In this document: positions 1-6,190 of the stretch, in pieces
How the letters are laid out: each line of letters begins with the position of its first letter
How positions within the stretch are numbered: the stretch's first letter is position 1
From: Planctomycetota bacterium
GTDB lineage: Bacteria; Planctomycetota; Phycisphaerae; WQYP01
Direction of reading: 5' to 3'
Length of the DNA: 33,311 bases
NCBI GenBank assembly: GCA_021831565.1
Contig: JAKBMM010000034.1
Span: 1 to 33,311, forward strand
Made by a program: the position numbers and the translations under genes
The notes under the pieces: generated by a model
What the model was told of the DNA's origin: nothing
Database searches by the model: none
The model's input: only the letters and a program-made list of their open reading frames with translations

Positions 1-172
1 TCGACATTCAAGAGGCGGTACTTGCGCCGGATCCGTCCGAGTGATGGTGCATCCATCTTCCCTATATCGACTGGAGTACGCGCATGTCATTAAAATTTGT
101 TCAAGTTATTGTTGAGCGCGCCCTAAGGATGGCCACACCGGGCCGAACCGCAACCGCGATTACGCGATTTCC

Positions 173-901
173 ATGATTCCCCTGCCCAAGTCTTACCATT
201 TCATTATTTTTAATCCCCGGCGTGTCAATACAGCGTCGTTGGCGGATATGCGCGGTGCGGCCCAGAGCCGGGTGGTGAATTTCTGGGGCGGGGTCTGGAA
301 ACGGTTCCTGGTGCGCGGGCCGATGAAGCTGGCTGTTCGCGTGGCGAGAAATTATTCGCTCGACGCTTGTCTGGCCGGGGCGATGCTGGACCCATTGGCC
401 GAGCATCCGGCGCCCTATTATTTCGGCCACCGGGCCTGGCAAGCTCATGAAAAGCAAAGAGCGGAATTGCGCACCCGTTTGGTGGCCGCCTGGCAGAGCA
501 TTCGGAGCGCGGACGTCCTCGTCCGCAATACTGCGACCAACCACACGGCCCGCCTGATTCTGCAAATCTTGAATGTTCTCGAACACCGCAACCCCGCCGC
601 CTGGGCGGCCAATCAGCGGCAGGCTTATCTATCGGTTCTGCGCTGGTGCGTGGCGCATTACGGCAAATTGCCGAAAAATCCAGCCGCCGCGGCCATCACG
701 GAAAAATGCTATTACCACTTGGGGCTTTTTCATCACTGGGAGGCGGTGGAAAAGTCGCGCCAAATTCTCACCTCCCGGCAAATTGAGAAGGGACTGCGGT
801 GGAATGTTAAAAAGGTTTTCTTGTACGTCTACGGTTATAAGGCGATACGGTTGTACTTGCGCAGACTTGGCAAAGGTCATCCGTCGCCCCACGGAGAATA
901 G
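173..901 (+). CDS. Hypothetical protein (242 aa)
   Basis: I do not recognise this protein. It has no signal peptide or clear membrane segment and is rich in Arg, Ala, Trp and Tyr. The middle and C-terminal parts look helical (about residues 85-240), with many aromatic and basic residues, and the end is strongly basic. ATG at 173 is the first ATG of the frame. The frame stays open upstream to a TGA near position 107, and no convincing Shine-Dalgarno precedes the ATG, so the true start could be a little upstream. It lies 72 bases before the Cys-rich small protein on the same strand and may be co-transcribed with it. The opposite-strand frame over its first part is a shadow. It looks coding, but the function is unknown. 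Confidence 0.55.
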   Translation: MIPLPKSYHFIIFNPRRVNTASLADMRGAAQSRVVNFWGGVWKRFLVRGPMKLAVRVARNYSLDACLAGAMLDPLAEHPAPYYFGHRAWQAHEKQRAELRTRLVAAWQSIRSADVLVRNTATNHTARLILQILNVLEHRNPAAWAANQRQAYLSVLRWCVAHYGKLPKNPAAAAITEKCYYHLGLFHHWEAVEKSRQILTSRQIEKGLRWNVKKVFLYVYGYKAIRLYLRRLGKGHPSPHGE

Positions 902-973: not shown

Positions 974-1279
974 ATGAGGACACGTAAGGTTTTACTAAGT
1001 TGTGGATTGGCTCTCGGTATCGCAGCGGGGGCAGTTGCGTGGTCACTGAATGAGGGGCTGGCTTCAGCGAACTACGCGACGGAAGCCGGTGAATGTGGCA
1101 TACTTGTGTATTGCCCGAATAGCACGAGCACCTGCACAACGACAGACAACAACCAAGACGCCGTTGAAGTGAGCTCAAGTGGCTACAAAAGTGGTGATAA
1201 TCAGTGTGGGGTCGCAACTAATGGTACTAACCTAAGTTACTGCGGTCCTTATACCGATACTGGTGTAAAATGCCCATGA
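974..1279 (+). CDS. Small secreted Cys-rich protein (NVEALA-like architecture)
   Basis: This 101-residue protein has a short basic N-terminus, a hydrophobic stretch (about residues 6-24) and then a small mature domain with six cysteines (41, 47, 54, 78, 90, 100) rich in Ser, Thr, Asn and Gly. The likely job is a secreted, disulfide-bonded small protein. The start at 974 is chosen because GAGGAG lies just upstream with good spacing and a signal peptide follows at once; the longer open frame from 905 lacks both. The next genes are a LolA-like protein, DUF1573 and a MauE/thioredoxin fusion. In Bacteroidetes the NVEALA family of short secreted Cys-containing peptides sits in similar surroundings. 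The NVEALA motif itself is absent, so this is an analogy of architecture and context, not a family assignment. Confidence 0.7.
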   Translation: MRTRKVLLSCGLALGIAAGAVAWSLNEGLASANYATEAGECGILVYCPNSTSTCTTTDNNQDAVEVSSSGYKSGDNQCGVATNGTNLSYCGPYTDTGVKCP

Positions 1280-1351
1280 CAAATGATGGCGGCGGTGCCG
1301 TGATGGCCGATTGGGAATCACGGCGCCACCTTTGGAAAAGGAGTACCTAGC

Positions 1352-2350
1352 ATGCGGATGTTATTGTGTTCAATCGTTATTTTGGTGCTGTTGTGCGTTT
1401 CCGGTGCCCGCGCGACGTCTCCCACAACGCCAACCAATTCTGTTGCACAAGCCCTGCTTTGGCAGGCTCGTCAATACACGCACATTAAAACCATTCATTT
1501 TCTAGCCGTGGGACACGACAAGTTTACGAAACCGAATGGTAAGACAGAGACTTCCACACAGCGATACGAATATTGGGGGGCCGGGATAAAATACCGTATC
1601 GACTTTCAGCAATTTGTCCCGCAAGCTGATTCTGACTTCTTAGTAACCGACAACGGCAGACACTTCCGCATGTTTAACCGTATTGCTGCTCTTATGACCA
1701 TTGAACCTACGCACCCGATCCATCACGGCGTACCCGTTACACCAAACCCCATCTTGATGCCTTTAGTACCATTGGCACCATTTTTTCCGCCTCGTCTTGG
1801 TACGCCGCACATGCAGTGGGTTAATCTCGCGCGGTTTACGCGGAATCCTCAGTCAATATTTGACCGCTGCCGAGAGGTTGCACCCTGCGGGAAAAAAGGC
1901 TTGGGTGTCGGCCTGCATGGCTGCATATTGGGCGCATATCAGAACTATTCCGTGCACGTCAGGTTTACGATTGGCGGTGGGATGCACCACCTTTTGGTGA
2001 CTGGCTGGACAGCAAACTATTTGCAGCTCGCCGGGAACTATATGCGTCTTAGTCATATTAAATACCGGGCGTTTCGCCTTCCATCAAGGCGAAAGATATT
2101 TCTGCCGGTGGCGTTTGACGAAAAAGGCATGACCAAAAACATGCCGGGGCCAGGTAGGGGGGGCTGGAGCAATAAGGTTGTCATTTCCAATGTTTCAATT
2201 GACCAGCCGATTCCGCCAGGGGAGTTTAACATTAACTATAAGCTGGCACGCTTCATAAAAGAGGTGTCTCCTGACGGTAAGGCCCAATTCTTTTCAGTTT
2301 ACCCCACCACCAGCCCCGCCCCGCCGCGCGAGCGGAATTCAAACAAGTAA
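1352..2350 (+). CDS. Secreted LolA-like protein of the Cys-rich peptide cassette
   Basis: This is a 332-residue exported protein with a cleavable signal peptide (about residues 1-21, ending GARA). The body is a mostly beta-type sequence resembling LolA/LolB-like lipoprotein carriers: an N-terminal helix (VAQALLWQARQY) is followed by strands such as QRYEYWGAGIKYRIDF and FLVTDNGRHFRMFN. This pattern is common in planctomycete LolA-like proteins, but the similarity is weak and no catalytic motif is visible. The start has a strong Shine-Dalgarno (AAGGAG, about 9 bases upstream). It lies 72 bases after the Cys-rich protein and 32 bases before the DUF1573 gene, which suggests one operon. It might bind the small secreted protein or a lipidic ligand; that is inference. 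Confidence 0.6.
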   Translation: MRMLLCSIVILVLLCVSGARATSPTTPTNSVAQALLWQARQYTHIKTIHFLAVGHDKFTKPNGKTETSTQRYEYWGAGIKYRIDFQQFVPQADSDFLVTDNGRHFRMFNRIAALMTIEPTHPIHHGVPVTPNPILMPLVPLAPFFPPRLGTPHMQWVNLARFTRNPQSIFDRCREVAPCGKKGLGVGLHGCILGAYQNYSVHVRFTIGGGMHHLLVTGWTANYLQLAGNYMRLSHIKYRAFRLPSRRKIFLPVAFDEKGMTKNMPGPGRGGWSNKVVISNVSIDQPIPPGEFNINYKLARFIKEVSPDGKAQFFSVYPTTSPAPPRERNSNK

Positions 2351-2382
2351 GATACCGCTTTCCATGGAAAGGTTGTGTTGCC

Positions 2383-3495
2383 ATGCCTACAGAAAATCAG
2401 TACAAAACTGATCCAAGTTCAGTGGTTCGCCCGCTCGCATTCGGAGCCGCCCTGTTCGGTCTGCTTTTTCTGGTCGCCGCAAAAGCGTGGGCCGTCAACA
2501 ACGCCGCCGCACCCATTGGCGGGCCGCCATCCGTTACGCATACAGTGAACCTAGGGCCACAATTGCCGGGTCGGATAATCAGTGAAAAGCAGGTAATCGC
2601 CAACCATGGCTCGACGAAAATGCATATCTCGAAGATTATCACCTCCTGCGGATGCTTTGGCGGTGATCTGCGGCCAGATGTGATACCGCCGGGAAAGTCC
2701 GCGACATTGTATTTGAAGCTCACAACGCATCATACTCCTGGAGCCTATATGGTAACAGCTGTGCTCTACGGCCGAACAGGCTCCGCTTCAGTCTTCCGGC
2801 AATACAGGTTTCTATATTCCGTTCACCGAATGATCCGAGTCTCGGGGATTCAGGACAATCCAGAGCAGTCCTATTACCTTAACTTGGGGTCCACTACTGC
2901 GGGCGCCAAGCCGATACCATATCGGTTAACCGTGACGCGAGGTGGTTATCCGGCCCCTTGGGATTCCTTAAAGTGCTCCGCCAACGCCGCGGACCTTGCC
3001 CTCGACCTGAACCAAAAAGGCAAGAATAACTGGTTGCTTACTCTGCTTCCGAAAAATCTCGCCATTCTGGGATCCCAATCGTATATGCTCCGTTTTTCGT
3101 TTTACCAGAAGGGGAAGGAACTGCGATACCATTTTTCGGAACCAGTGAATTTCAAGGTACGCGGGCCGTTGGAAATGGAGCCGGACAGCGTATTTTTCGG
3201 GGCCGTTCCTTATGGTTCCACCGTGGTAAAGCACCTGCAACTCGTCACCAGTGCAACGGGGGAGATAGGGAAAGGCAGGATCGTTTCCGCGACATCGACC
3301 GACCCCACGCACGCGGTTGCTTCCATCATCAACGGCGGCAAAGGGCTTCGGGTCGCATTCCACGCGGTCCACGTTCGAGGGAGAACCACGGGACGCTTCT
3401 TGGTGACGGCTGAGTACGGCGGATCGCGGTACCAATTTCGCGAGGATTACCTGGCGTATGTGGGGAAGCAGCGACCCAAGGCCAAGGTTCGCTGA
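2383..3495 (+). CDS. DUF1573 domain protein, secreted or membrane-anchored
   Basis: The 370-residue protein has an N-terminal hydrophobic export signal (about residues 17-38) and then an immunoglobulin-like DUF1573 domain (about 50-150). Its hallmark is visible: a strand ending in TSCGCF (Cys89 and Cys91), then a Gly/Asp turn and IPPGKSATL. A second similar beta domain without the cysteines follows (about 150-360). DUF1573 proteins are periplasmic or surface proteins of Bacteroidetes and Planctomycetes with unknown biochemical role. The CGCF motif is shared with the membrane protein encoded next (CGCFG), which hints at a common redox or metal role for the pair. The start has an AAAGG about 10 bases upstream. 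Only 12 bases separate it from the longest reading of the next frame. Confidence 0.8.
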   Translation: MPTENQYKTDPSSVVRPLAFGAALFGLLFLVAAKAWAVNNAAAPIGGPPSVTHTVNLGPQLPGRIISEKQVIANHGSTKMHISKIITSCGCFGGDLRPDVIPPGKSATLYLKLTTHHTPGAYMVTAVLYGRTGSASVFRQYRFLYSVHRMIRVSGIQDNPEQSYYLNLGSTTAGAKPIPYRLTVTRGGYPAPWDSLKCSANAADLALDLNQKGKNNWLLTLLPKNLAILGSQSYMLRFSFYQKGKELRYHFSEPVNFKVRGPLEMEPDSVFFGAVPYGSTVVKHLQLVTSATGEIGKGRIVSATSTDPTHAVASIINGGKGLRVAFHAVHVRGRTTGRFLVTAEYGGSRYQFREDYLAYVGKQRPKAKVR

Positions 3496-3540
3496 GACCT
3501 TGCATTTATGGTGTTCTCATCAAAAGAGAGGGCGTTACGG

Positions 3541-4590
3541 ATGAAGGAAAACGGCTTCTCATACAGCACTCCGGCGGTTGGGTCGGGCGCAATGTCTCCG
3601 GCCAGGCGCGTTGTTATTGCAACAAGCATGGTGCTGCTTCTGGCTGCGGGGCTGAAGGCTTGGCAGGTTATTCATTCGCCGGTTCCCATGCCGGAACCGC
3701 TGGGAATATCCGGATTCACCCCCGCACTGATCGGTGGTGAAATCTTTCTCAGCCTCTGGCTGCTCAGCGGGGCGCTGCCGACTGCGGCCCGGCGCACGGC
3801 GATAGGCTGCTTTGCTCTCTTCGGCGGCTATGCCTTCTGGGAAGCTCTGGCGGGAAAATTGTCCTGCGGCTGCTTCGGCCAAGTGCACGTGAATCCGTGG
3901 TTTACGGTGGTGCTGAATGCGGCGATGCTTGTCCTGCTGATCGCCTTCCGGCGAGAACCATCCGGCGGCAACGGCACGGGGGCCGTGCCGTCTACAAAGG
4001 GGGTTGGGCATCCTGCCCGACAGAAGCTCAGGACAATGGCGGCCAAGGCCGCCTCTCAACAGAATGCCGGCCATAGCCGTTGGCCGGTGGGCACGGCGGT
4101 TATTGCCGGGGTACTCGCATCAATCACAGTTTCTATACTGCATCCACGCCCCGTTGCCGCGGGCCATGGCTTACTGGTTGCCGACGGCGGAAAGATCGTG
4201 ATTCTGGAACCGCACAAGTGGCTCGGCCAACGCTTGCCGGTGCTCAAACATATCCGCATCGGCAAGCAGCTTGCGCAGGGCCGATGGGTGGTGATGTTTT
4301 ATCACGCTGATTGTGATGTTTGTTGGCACACGATCCCGGTTTACGAGGCCCTGGCCATGCAAGACGCCTTCGGCGGCGGGCCGCGGGTGGCGTTTGTGCG
4401 CGTGCCGTCCGAGGATCCGCCTGGACCGCCGCCGGCGGGCCTTTTTCATACGAACCTGGCGTTGCATGGCGCGCTGGATGAGAGTCATGAATGGTTTGCC
4501 GCCGCGCCGATGGCGGCGGAACTGCGCAACGGCAGGGTGATTGCCTTTGCCTCGGGCACGGCGGCGAGGAATGCAGATTGGCTGAAATAA
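3541..4590 (+). CDS. MauE/DoxX-type redox membrane protein fused to a thioredoxin-like domain
   Basis: The N-terminal half has four hydrophobic segments (about residues 20-150) with the layout of MauE/DoxX-family redox membrane proteins and the typical motif SCGCFG near residue 108 after the third segment. Another membrane segment lies near residues 180-200, and a thioredoxin-like domain follows (about 220-349) with a CxxC centre, CDVC near residue 256, in the context VVMFYHADCDVC. MauE proteins are linked to disulfide formation in partner proteins. Here the membrane part and its thioredoxin partner are one chain, suited to oxidising or isomerising the six cysteines of the small secreted protein upstream. 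ATG 3541 is preferred because GAGAGGG precedes it; an ATG at 3508 in the same frame lacks a ribosome site. It ends the cassette. Confidence 0.75.
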   Translation: MKENGFSYSTPAVGSGAMSPARRVVIATSMVLLLAAGLKAWQVIHSPVPMPEPLGISGFTPALIGGEIFLSLWLLSGALPTAARRTAIGCFALFGGYAFWEALAGKLSCGCFGQVHVNPWFTVVLNAAMLVLLIAFRREPSGGNGTGAVPSTKGVGHPARQKLRTMAAKAASQQNAGHSRWPVGTAVIAGVLASITVSILHPRPVAAGHGLLVADGGKIVILEPHKWLGQRLPVLKHIRIGKQLAQGRWVVMFYHADCDVCWHTIPVYEALAMQDAFGGGPRVAFVRVPSEDPPGPPPAGLFHTNLALHGALDESHEWFAAAPMAAELRNGRVIAFASGTAARNADWLK

Positions 4591-4651
4591 TCCCGACTCC
4601 CAATCAGTGCAATCCGTGTAATTGTGGTCAAAAGGAACGGTAGGGCGCCTG

Positions 4652-5833
4652 ATGGAGAAAGAACCACGAATGAAAGGTGAAAAAGTCAACGACCACGGCA
4701 CGATTGTAAACCGCCAAGACGCCAAGGGCGCCAAGAATGTATTACCGTGTCCTGGCGGTTCCCCAAATACACCTTGGCGTTCTTGGCGTCTTGGCGGTTC
4801 GTGGTTCAATGGCTATTCAGCCACGCGCGGGACAGGTCCCGCGGCTAACAGTAAATCGCCATCCGGCTTCACTCTGGTGGAGATGCTGGTGGTCATTTCG
4901 ATCATCGCCGTTCTGCTCTCGCTGTTATTGCCCGCTTTGGGCAAGGCGCGCAACCTGGCCCTGCAGATCGTCTGCGCCTCGAATCTGCGGTCGCTGGGGC
5001 AGGGCGTGTTTATTTACATCGGCGAATACAAAAACTATCCCATGCCGGCGGGGTGGCACAATCAGAACAGCGGGGGAGGATATATACACGAGGACCTCGA
5101 GCCGTTCGGCAATCTTGACTCCACCGGCCCCGGCATGGACATGGCCAACCAGCCTTACTCCTTTGGTTATGGTTTGCTCTATACCAGCGGCATCATCAAG
5201 AATCCAACGGTTTTCTTTTGCCCGCAGGCCGGCCTGTTCACCCTCGACGGGGATACCTGGCAGGCGAACGGTACCGCCGGGCAAAAGTCCCGCACGTTTC
5301 CCATGTCTTGGATTGCGCCGCAGAAACTATACGATCCCGCCGAATGGGGCCAGCCGCTTTCTCCCTGGCAACAAAGCCTGACCAAACCCTACGAGTTTTT
5401 GCAGGCCATTTTCCTTGGCTACAACTACTGGTTCGGATTTTCGCAGGGCACGTTTTCGAATCCGACGGGCAAACACGGGCTTACGAACACCAGCCCCATT
5501 AACGTAACCAACCCTTGGACGGGCGTTACGGCGTATACCTCCCTTCTGGATCCGGCGCATCCGTTCACTTCGGTCACCAACTGCCACAGCGCCGTGGAGT
5601 CCATTCTGGGCAGCGACGTGACGGTGAGCAATTCGCAGCCCCCGCCGCTGTCCTGGTTATTCCAGCCCAATAACATAGGCGAGCCGGGAATCGTGCCCCT
5701 GTCGAACCATGTCGGCCAAAACGGCGTGCGGGGCGCGAACATTCTCTACAACGACGGCTCGGTACAGTGGAAAGGCCCGGCCGATTTGCATTGCAACTAT
5801 TACGATGGCGGGTCATTGTTCTTTTGGGAATAA
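4652..5833 (+). CDS. Type IV prepilin / pseudopilin-like protein (DUF1559-like)
   Basis: The prepilin signature is clear: a Gly-Phe cleavage site followed by TLVEMLVVISIIAVLLSLLL and the start of a long helix, with conserved Glu at mature position 5. A long globular domain follows, and the C-terminus has the NILYNDGSV stretch typical of planctomycete DUF1559/H-X9-DG pseudopilins. It would be cleaved by a prepilin peptidase and assembled into a type II secretion or pilus-like fibre. The start is uncertain. Between the inverted repeat and the cleavage site no start codon occurs in frame, so translation seems to begin upstream, at 4652 or 4670 (ATG), and to read through the repeat, giving an unusually long leader of about 70 residues. 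AGGG lies just before 4652. Confidence 0.75.
   Translation: MEKEPRMKGEKVNDHGTIVNRQDAKGAKNVLPCPGGSPNTPWRSWRLGGSWFNGYSATRGTGPAANSKSPSGFTLVEMLVVISIIAVLLSLLLPALGKARNLALQIVCASNLRSLGQGVFIYIGEYKNYPMPAGWHNQNSGGGYIHEDLEPFGNLDSTGPGMDMANQPYSFGYGLLYTSGIIKNPTVFFCPQAGLFTLDGDTWQANGTAGQKSRTFPMSWIAPQKLYDPAEWGQPLSPWQQSLTKPYEFLQAIFLGYNYWFGFSQGTFSNPTGKHGLTNTSPINVTNPWTGVTAYTSLLDPAHPFTSVTNCHSAVESILGSDVTVSNSQPPPLSWLFQPNNIGEPGIVPLSNHVGQNGVRGANILYNDGSVQWKGPADLHCNYYDGGSLFFWE
4661..4807. repeat. Imperfect inverted repeat of the CGCCAAGACGCCAAG type
   Basis: The right arm (4773-4807) is the reverse complement of GAACCACGAA followed by CCGCCAAGACGCCAAG and a further CGCCAAG unit. The left arm has the same parts but split: GAACCACGAA at 4661-4670, then a 40-base interruption, then the CGCCAAG units at 4711-4735. 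The loop is 37 bases. Short elements of this type recur between genes in many environmental bacteria. The element overlaps the 5' part of the prepilin frame. Just upstream, at about 4596-4630, a tract with AATCCGTGTAAT looks like another widespread intergenic repeat family. Confidence 0.8.
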
Positions 5834-5876
5834 CCAACCCCGCAGGCCGGCGAAGGGGGATCGTCGCGCCCGGCCT

Positions 5877-6190
5877 TTATTCGATAATATCCCGCAGCTT
5901 GCCGCTGGCCTTCGCCTCCAGATCGACCATCATGTTTCCATACACCTTGCCGATCTGCACCATCGCCAGGGTGCTGATGATGTTGAGAACCGTCTTGGTG
6001 GCGGTGCCGGCCTTGAGCCGCGTGGAGCCGGCGATCACTTCCGGCCCGGTGGGCAGGCAGATGAACAAATCCGCTGGGACACGAATGTGCTCCCGCGCGG
6101 TGCAGGTCAGGAAAATGGTTCTGGCTCCGAGGCGGCGCGCTTCTTCTATCACCCCGTGCACAAAAGGCGTGGTGCCGCAAGTGTCACCCA
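5877..6190 (-). pseudogene. murQ: murQ remnant (N-acetylmuramic acid 6-phosphate etherase fragment)
   Basis: The minus-strand frame ending at 5877 encodes about 100 residues that match the C-terminal half of the MurQ SIS domain: GTTPFVHGVIEEARRLGA, then LPTGPEVIAGSTRLKAGTAT, then LNIISTLAMVQIGKVYGNMM. MurQ removes lactate from MurNAc-6-phosphate in cell-wall recycling and is about 300 residues long. Here the N-terminal half, with the first part of the active site, is missing, and the C-terminal helical tail is cut off after KLRDII by a stop. The open frame runs on upstream to 6602, but that part is the complement of the aminotransferase gene and has no MurQ similarity. A degenerate remnant is the most likely reading. 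Confidence 0.7.

Follow-up and report, generated by a model that had tools for sequence, protein, structure and literature searches.

The window analysed here, 33,311 nucleotides long, opens contig C8. The genome it belongs to has a size of 2.8 Mb and is 95% complete. Four open reading frames follow one another on its plus strand. The first (974–1279) encodes P0001, a small Cys-rich, exported-type protein of 101 aa with a signal segment and six cysteines in its mature part. Next come genes for a protein of 332 aa with a predicted LolA fold and a putative periplasmic location (1352–2350), a DUF1573 protein of 370 aa containing TSCGCF (2383–3495) and a MauE-thioredoxin (MauE-Trx) fusion of 360 aa containing SCGCFG and CDVC (3508–4590). 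The gaps between them are 72, 32 and 12 bp, the last widening to 45 bp with the ATG at 3541 as start codon. An earlier, sequence-only reading had described these four genes as a cassette, and all of them are present on the plus strand as it described. The limits it gave (974–4590) proved too narrow: a gene for a prepilin-type pseudopilin (4622–5833, plus strand) lies downstream, part of a propeller gene lies upstream, and related loci show that the unit takes in both.

The analysis of the upstream region revealed that a multicopy repeat ends in positions 1–124. Seven contigs of the genome, C8 included, open with these 123–124 bp at 100% identity, and the stretch is probably the terminal part of a mobile element. 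Propeller homology starts exactly at position 125, where the repeat stops, and the alignment indicates that the repeat interrupts the propeller gene at this point. The remaining 3′ part of this gene (gene X, 125–901, plus strand) matches residues 634–880 of an 890-aa Reg_prop protein encoded by a different cassette of this genome with 75% identity, and by its sequence gene X is of the two-component-regulator type of beta-propeller genes. The propeller is the first gene of the cassette; at least nine other loci likewise have it ahead of the small-protein gene. Since it is broken in the window, not all parts of the cassette can be essential.

The gene for P0001 has AGGAG ahead of its ATG. The protein contains a hydrophobic segment, VLLSCGLALGIAAGAVA, with one cysteine inside it and six after it, the latter spaced 5-6-23-11-9. 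This spacing class was found in six relatives (5–7, 5–9, 22–28, 8–14 and 7–8), the values being read from single sequences, since MAFFT, when aligning the six-Cys class over its full length, puts some cysteines out of place. A direct similarity search of the order with P0001 returned only noise besides P0001 itself, and a three-sequence profile was needed to find its relatives there. Mature P0001 and the small protein of G023:C25 are homologous (z 6.2, 0 of 1000 shuffles). The family shares an N-terminal module, MF..I..R.N.R.GK...AAAVC.AGL..G.GG..LLAQ, and diverges strongly beyond it. The module of P0001 is shorter than the family version, and P0001 does not have the A-Q cleavage site found in the main class. 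The sequence-only reading had seen a single core protein, without an NVEALA motif and possibly of a new family. P0001 indeed matches no Pfam or NCBIfam family and is a Cys-rich protein of the exported type; it is not single, being a member of a hypervariable multicopy family.

Mature proteins of this family, which we refer to as cargo, are about 70–130 aa long. Their cysteine count is even (6, 8, 10, 12 or 14) in 28 of 31 cases (binomial p 2e-6, with mature starts cut by hand; the relatives are not independent, which makes this value optimistic), and the three with odd counts form a separate clade. Such even counts are expected if cysteines are gained and lost pairwise, as disulfide bonding predicts. 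The AlphaFold model of P0001 has a pLDDT of 41, so that neither its fold nor a disulfide pattern is given by the model. Between a DUF1573 gene and MauE-Trx, two loci (L064, positions 2286–2852, and L072) encode a protein with 17 cysteines whose signal (SRRAFLSRL) resembles the twin-arginine type; judging by its sequence, this protein is possibly a different cargo class.

To read gene order in related genomes, fetched loci were annotated with profiles. The order propeller, small protein, LolA-like protein, DUF1573 protein, MauE-Trx, pseudopilin was found repeatedly, with as many as about six occurrences in a genome. Genome G019 has a tandem arrangement, (small-LolA-DUF1573)x3-MauE-pilin, and in G025 tandem units of small, LolA-like and DUF1573 genes also precede a single MauE-Trx. 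We then counted signal-bearing open reading frames of 80–210 aa with at least six cysteines located directly upstream of each cassette gene. They were found in front of at least 24 of 37 LolA-like genes, and several of the remaining 13 have a Cys-rich frame that the start-codon rule missed. The corresponding counts were 1/34 for DUF1573, 0/32 for MauE, 0/13 for the pilin, 0/19 for the propeller and 0/17 for control frames. Among 28 genomes of the order, small-protein matches were present in 14 of the 15 that have a cassette-type MauE-Trx and in none of the 13 that do not (Fisher p 7e-7); in the one exception, G015, which gave no profile match, the small protein was seen by eye. A chance neighbourhood is ruled out by the recurrence of the gene order, the control frames and this co-occurrence. 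The sequence-only reading had proposed a planctomycete system in which the small protein co-occurs with DUF1573 and MauE-Trx genes, and had named a lack of homologues beside such genes in related genomes as the result that would speak against it. The co-occurrence is as predicted, and homologues do lie beside these genes in related genomes.

The LolA-like proteins gave no Pfam match in 23 relatives, save one doubtful weak match to another family. The AlphaFold model of the window protein (pLDDT 77.5) matched LolA structures of the PDB in a Foldseek search (E 3e-8, probability 1.0) with modest TM-scores of 0.3–0.6. On the strength of this model the second cassette protein is predicted to have the LolA fold, which bears out the label it had been given. 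It shares this predicted fold with the LolA lipoprotein carriers but has only about 10% identity to them, is highly divergent and typically occurs in one copy per cargo; P0001, in addition, is a cargo with no convincing lipobox.

The DUF1573 protein matches PF07610 with 30.7 bits against a cut-off of 26.1 (E 3e-7), and a match to this model (E up to 0.1) was obtained for all 21 cassette relatives. Both cysteines of its CGC motif, C89 and C91, are invariant in relatives. DUF1573 also occurs as a selenoprotein in which the motif reads UGC (PMC9312934), and this suggests that the CGC takes part in redox chemistry. In L057, L058 and L167 the DUF1573 protein has an extra N-terminal domain with the look of a C39 peptidase and no catalytic Cys; a Pfam scan of L058 did not confirm this resemblance. 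The MauE domain of the fourth protein matches PF07291 with 30.2 bits against a cut-off of 27 (E 6e-7), and the profile of the MauE-Trx family matches a thioredoxin-domain chain (E 6e-5). In 15 relatives C101, C120 and C122 are invariant and C269 and C272 nearly so.

The pseudopilin carries the N-terminal methylation motif (PF07963, 29.8 bits against a cut-off of 21.2; TIGR02532), a long leader and an H-X9-DG-like C-terminus, and was found downstream of MauE-Trx in at least eight other loci. An inverted repeat, aaccgccaagacgccaagg ... ccttggcgttcttggcgtcttggcggtt, is located at 4708–4802 of the window inside the leader region of its open reading frame and resembles a dispersed repeat.

Comparison of the cassette proteins with one another revealed that similarity among DUF1573 proteins correlates with that among cargos (Mantel p 0.001) and among LolA-like proteins (Mantel p 0.0005), while the LolA-cargo correlation alone is weak (p 0.12) and MauE-Trx similarity correlates with none of the three; the relatives are not independent, which makes these p values optimistic. 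The pattern suggests that cargo, LolA-like and DUF1573 proteins form a diverging triad and that MauE-Trx is a conserved, shared component. At the DNA level, positions 125–806 are 84% identical to other cassettes, 3641–4800 are 92% identical to the cassette on contig C23 and 4820–5910 are 94% identical to that on C32. The triad DNA between the matched ends has a lower GC content and found no match among the compared loci. These alignments indicate that the window cassette is a DNA mosaic, in which the triad would tend to move as a unit. On the minus strand beyond the pseudopilin there is a gene fragment (5889–6178) that we take, from its translation, to be MurQ-like. It is 90% identical to a genome of the same genus, G016, and shares 92% identity with the sequence flanking the C32 cassette; the latter match indicates that the cassette, when it moved, probably took part of its former surroundings along.

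In known systems MauE and MauD are tied to the maturation of the beta-subunit of methylamine dehydrogenase, and a role of MauE in its disulfides has been speculated on (PMC7794033). As in mau clusters, a Cys-rich exported small protein lies here beside MauE and a thioredoxin-like partner, both proposed to form disulfides. The cassette differs in having MauE and Trx fused, in the lack of a Trp-derived cofactor and of a large subunit, in the addition of LolA-like, DUF1573, pseudopilin and propeller proteins, and in a cargo that is hypervariable and multicopy. The host genome gave no match to the DsbB or VKOR families, with controls positive, although such a protein could be located in the missing part of the genome or be too divergent for the models. 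Together with the conserved redox cysteines and the MauE literature, this makes oxidative folding by MauE-Trx what we infer to be the best reading. Oxidative folding by the cassette had also been suggested by the sequence-only reading; it fits the cysteine parity and the lack of a detectable DsbB or VKOR, and we retain it as a putative activity acting on presumed disulfides. A counterpart of NVEALA proteins (PF14055), which that reading had also proposed, was not supported by sequence. According to that reading, these small exported proteins of Bacteroidetes occur near DUF1573 and MauE genes. P0001 has no NVEALA motif and did not match PF14055 at E up to 1, nor did 12 relatives at E up to 0.01, and there was no match in the whole genome while a Bacteroides control was positive.

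We consider it fairly likely that the unit is a recombining cassette which exports and oxidatively folds a variable disulfide-rich cargo, one per unit. The cargo would be exported by means of its N-terminal hydrophobic signal, and its thiols would then be oxidised by the MauE-thioredoxin fusion, standing in for DsbB or VKOR; electrons would pass from its CxxC via the membrane-domain SCGC to quinone. In the periplasm, the cargo-matched DUF1573 protein, with a putatively redox-active CGC, and the LolA-fold protein, likewise matched to its cargo, could chaperone, isomerise or carry the cargo, and the pseudopilin and a surface propeller could help to deliver the product or to anchor it outside the cell. 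Exchange and duplication of the triad as a unit against conserved MauE-Trx and pseudopilin would change the repertoire of the host. We rate the system as real, and MauE-dependent maturation as probably taking a new form in it; the literature searched, whose coverage leaves out most subscription papers, gave no account of such a cassette.

The variation of the cargo could also be explained by arms races, if the cassette were a biosynthetic cluster and its cargo bacteriocin- or RiPP-like peptides that are secreted and act as antagonists. The available part of PMC7794033 describes MauE genes (one with MauD) adjoining precursors with at least eight cysteines as candidate RiPP families of Streptomyces found with decRiPPter. 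The cassette resembles these families in this respect; it belongs to another phylum and, in a comparison by description only, its other partners are not named in that part of the source. A hypervariable, multicopy cargo with a conserved leader and one weak Sublancin match (E 0.006) would agree with such a role. However, among the cassette genes, in a neighbourhood annotated in part, we noticed neither an immunity gene nor an ABC exporter nor a modifying enzyme; tandem units occur in one genome with no obvious immunity partner; and the cargo size after the signal exceeds that of most such peptides. We regard antagonistic peptides as unlikely.

Many of the related metagenome-assembled genomes (MAGs) come apparently from metal-rich acidic sites and the cysteine content of the cargo is high, as would suit metallothionein-like proteins that bind metal through reduced thiolates in acid mine water and are kept reduced by the redox proteins of the cassette. 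However, thiolate metal binding is unfavourable at low pH as a matter of general chemistry, mature P0001 has no CxC, CxxC or His, and the even cysteine counts also argue against it. MauE systems, moreover, are tied to disulfide formation (PMC7794033), and we find metal binding quite improbable. A MauA-like subunit with a quinone cofactor, encoded in a divergent amine-dehydrogenase cluster, would account for MauE and a MauD-like thioredoxin domain beside a small Cys-rich protein, but we give it hardly any credence, as mature P0001 has no Trp, and hence no Trp pair for a TTQ or CTQ cofactor, matches no MauA (methylamine dehydrogenase light chain) family and has no catalytic large subunit beside it in the cassette.

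With oxidative folding of a variable cargo as the preferred reading, several cassettes per genome look like dedicated machinery for making secreted proteins that are disulfide-knotted and vary rapidly. A more far-reaching proposal, which we put forward tentatively and with less than even confidence, is a diversity-generating surface system. Exchangeable triads, each of a hypervariable cargo with its matched LolA-fold carrier and DUF1573 redox chaperone, would be recombined with a MauE-thioredoxin oxidase and a pseudopilin common to them, supplying each cell with a changing set of knotted extracellular proteins. The cassette offers testable roles for DUF1573 proteins, MauE-Trx fusions and divergent LolA-like proteins, three families whose function is poorly known, in disulfide formation where no DsbB or VKOR is detectable, and a family-restricted repertoire of hypervariable Cys-rich exported-type proteins outside the Pfam and NCBIfam models tried.

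Cassette-type MauE-Trx genes occur in one GTDB family, in up to about six copies per genome, and strong small-protein matches are limited to the same family among the 397 genomes of the class that were searched. The relatives of the host genome are MAGs of Phycisphaerae, in which binning may be imperfect; mine sites are the apparent origin of many of them and a sulfidic cave that of one. Contigs L052 (G000:C23), L054 (G005:C59) and L168 (G022:C191), assigned to MAGs of different genera, are 99.7–100% identical over 4.8–6.4 kb; the C23 contig is 100% identical to that of G005 across 6451 bp and 99.7% identical to that of G022, reflecting either misbinning or very recent transfer. In G016 (L082, 8903–9125, compared with L165) the MurQ-like gene is accompanied only by a 3′ remnant of the pseudopilin gene, whereas G000 carries a cassette at this place, and this difference between the two genomes is probably due to loss.
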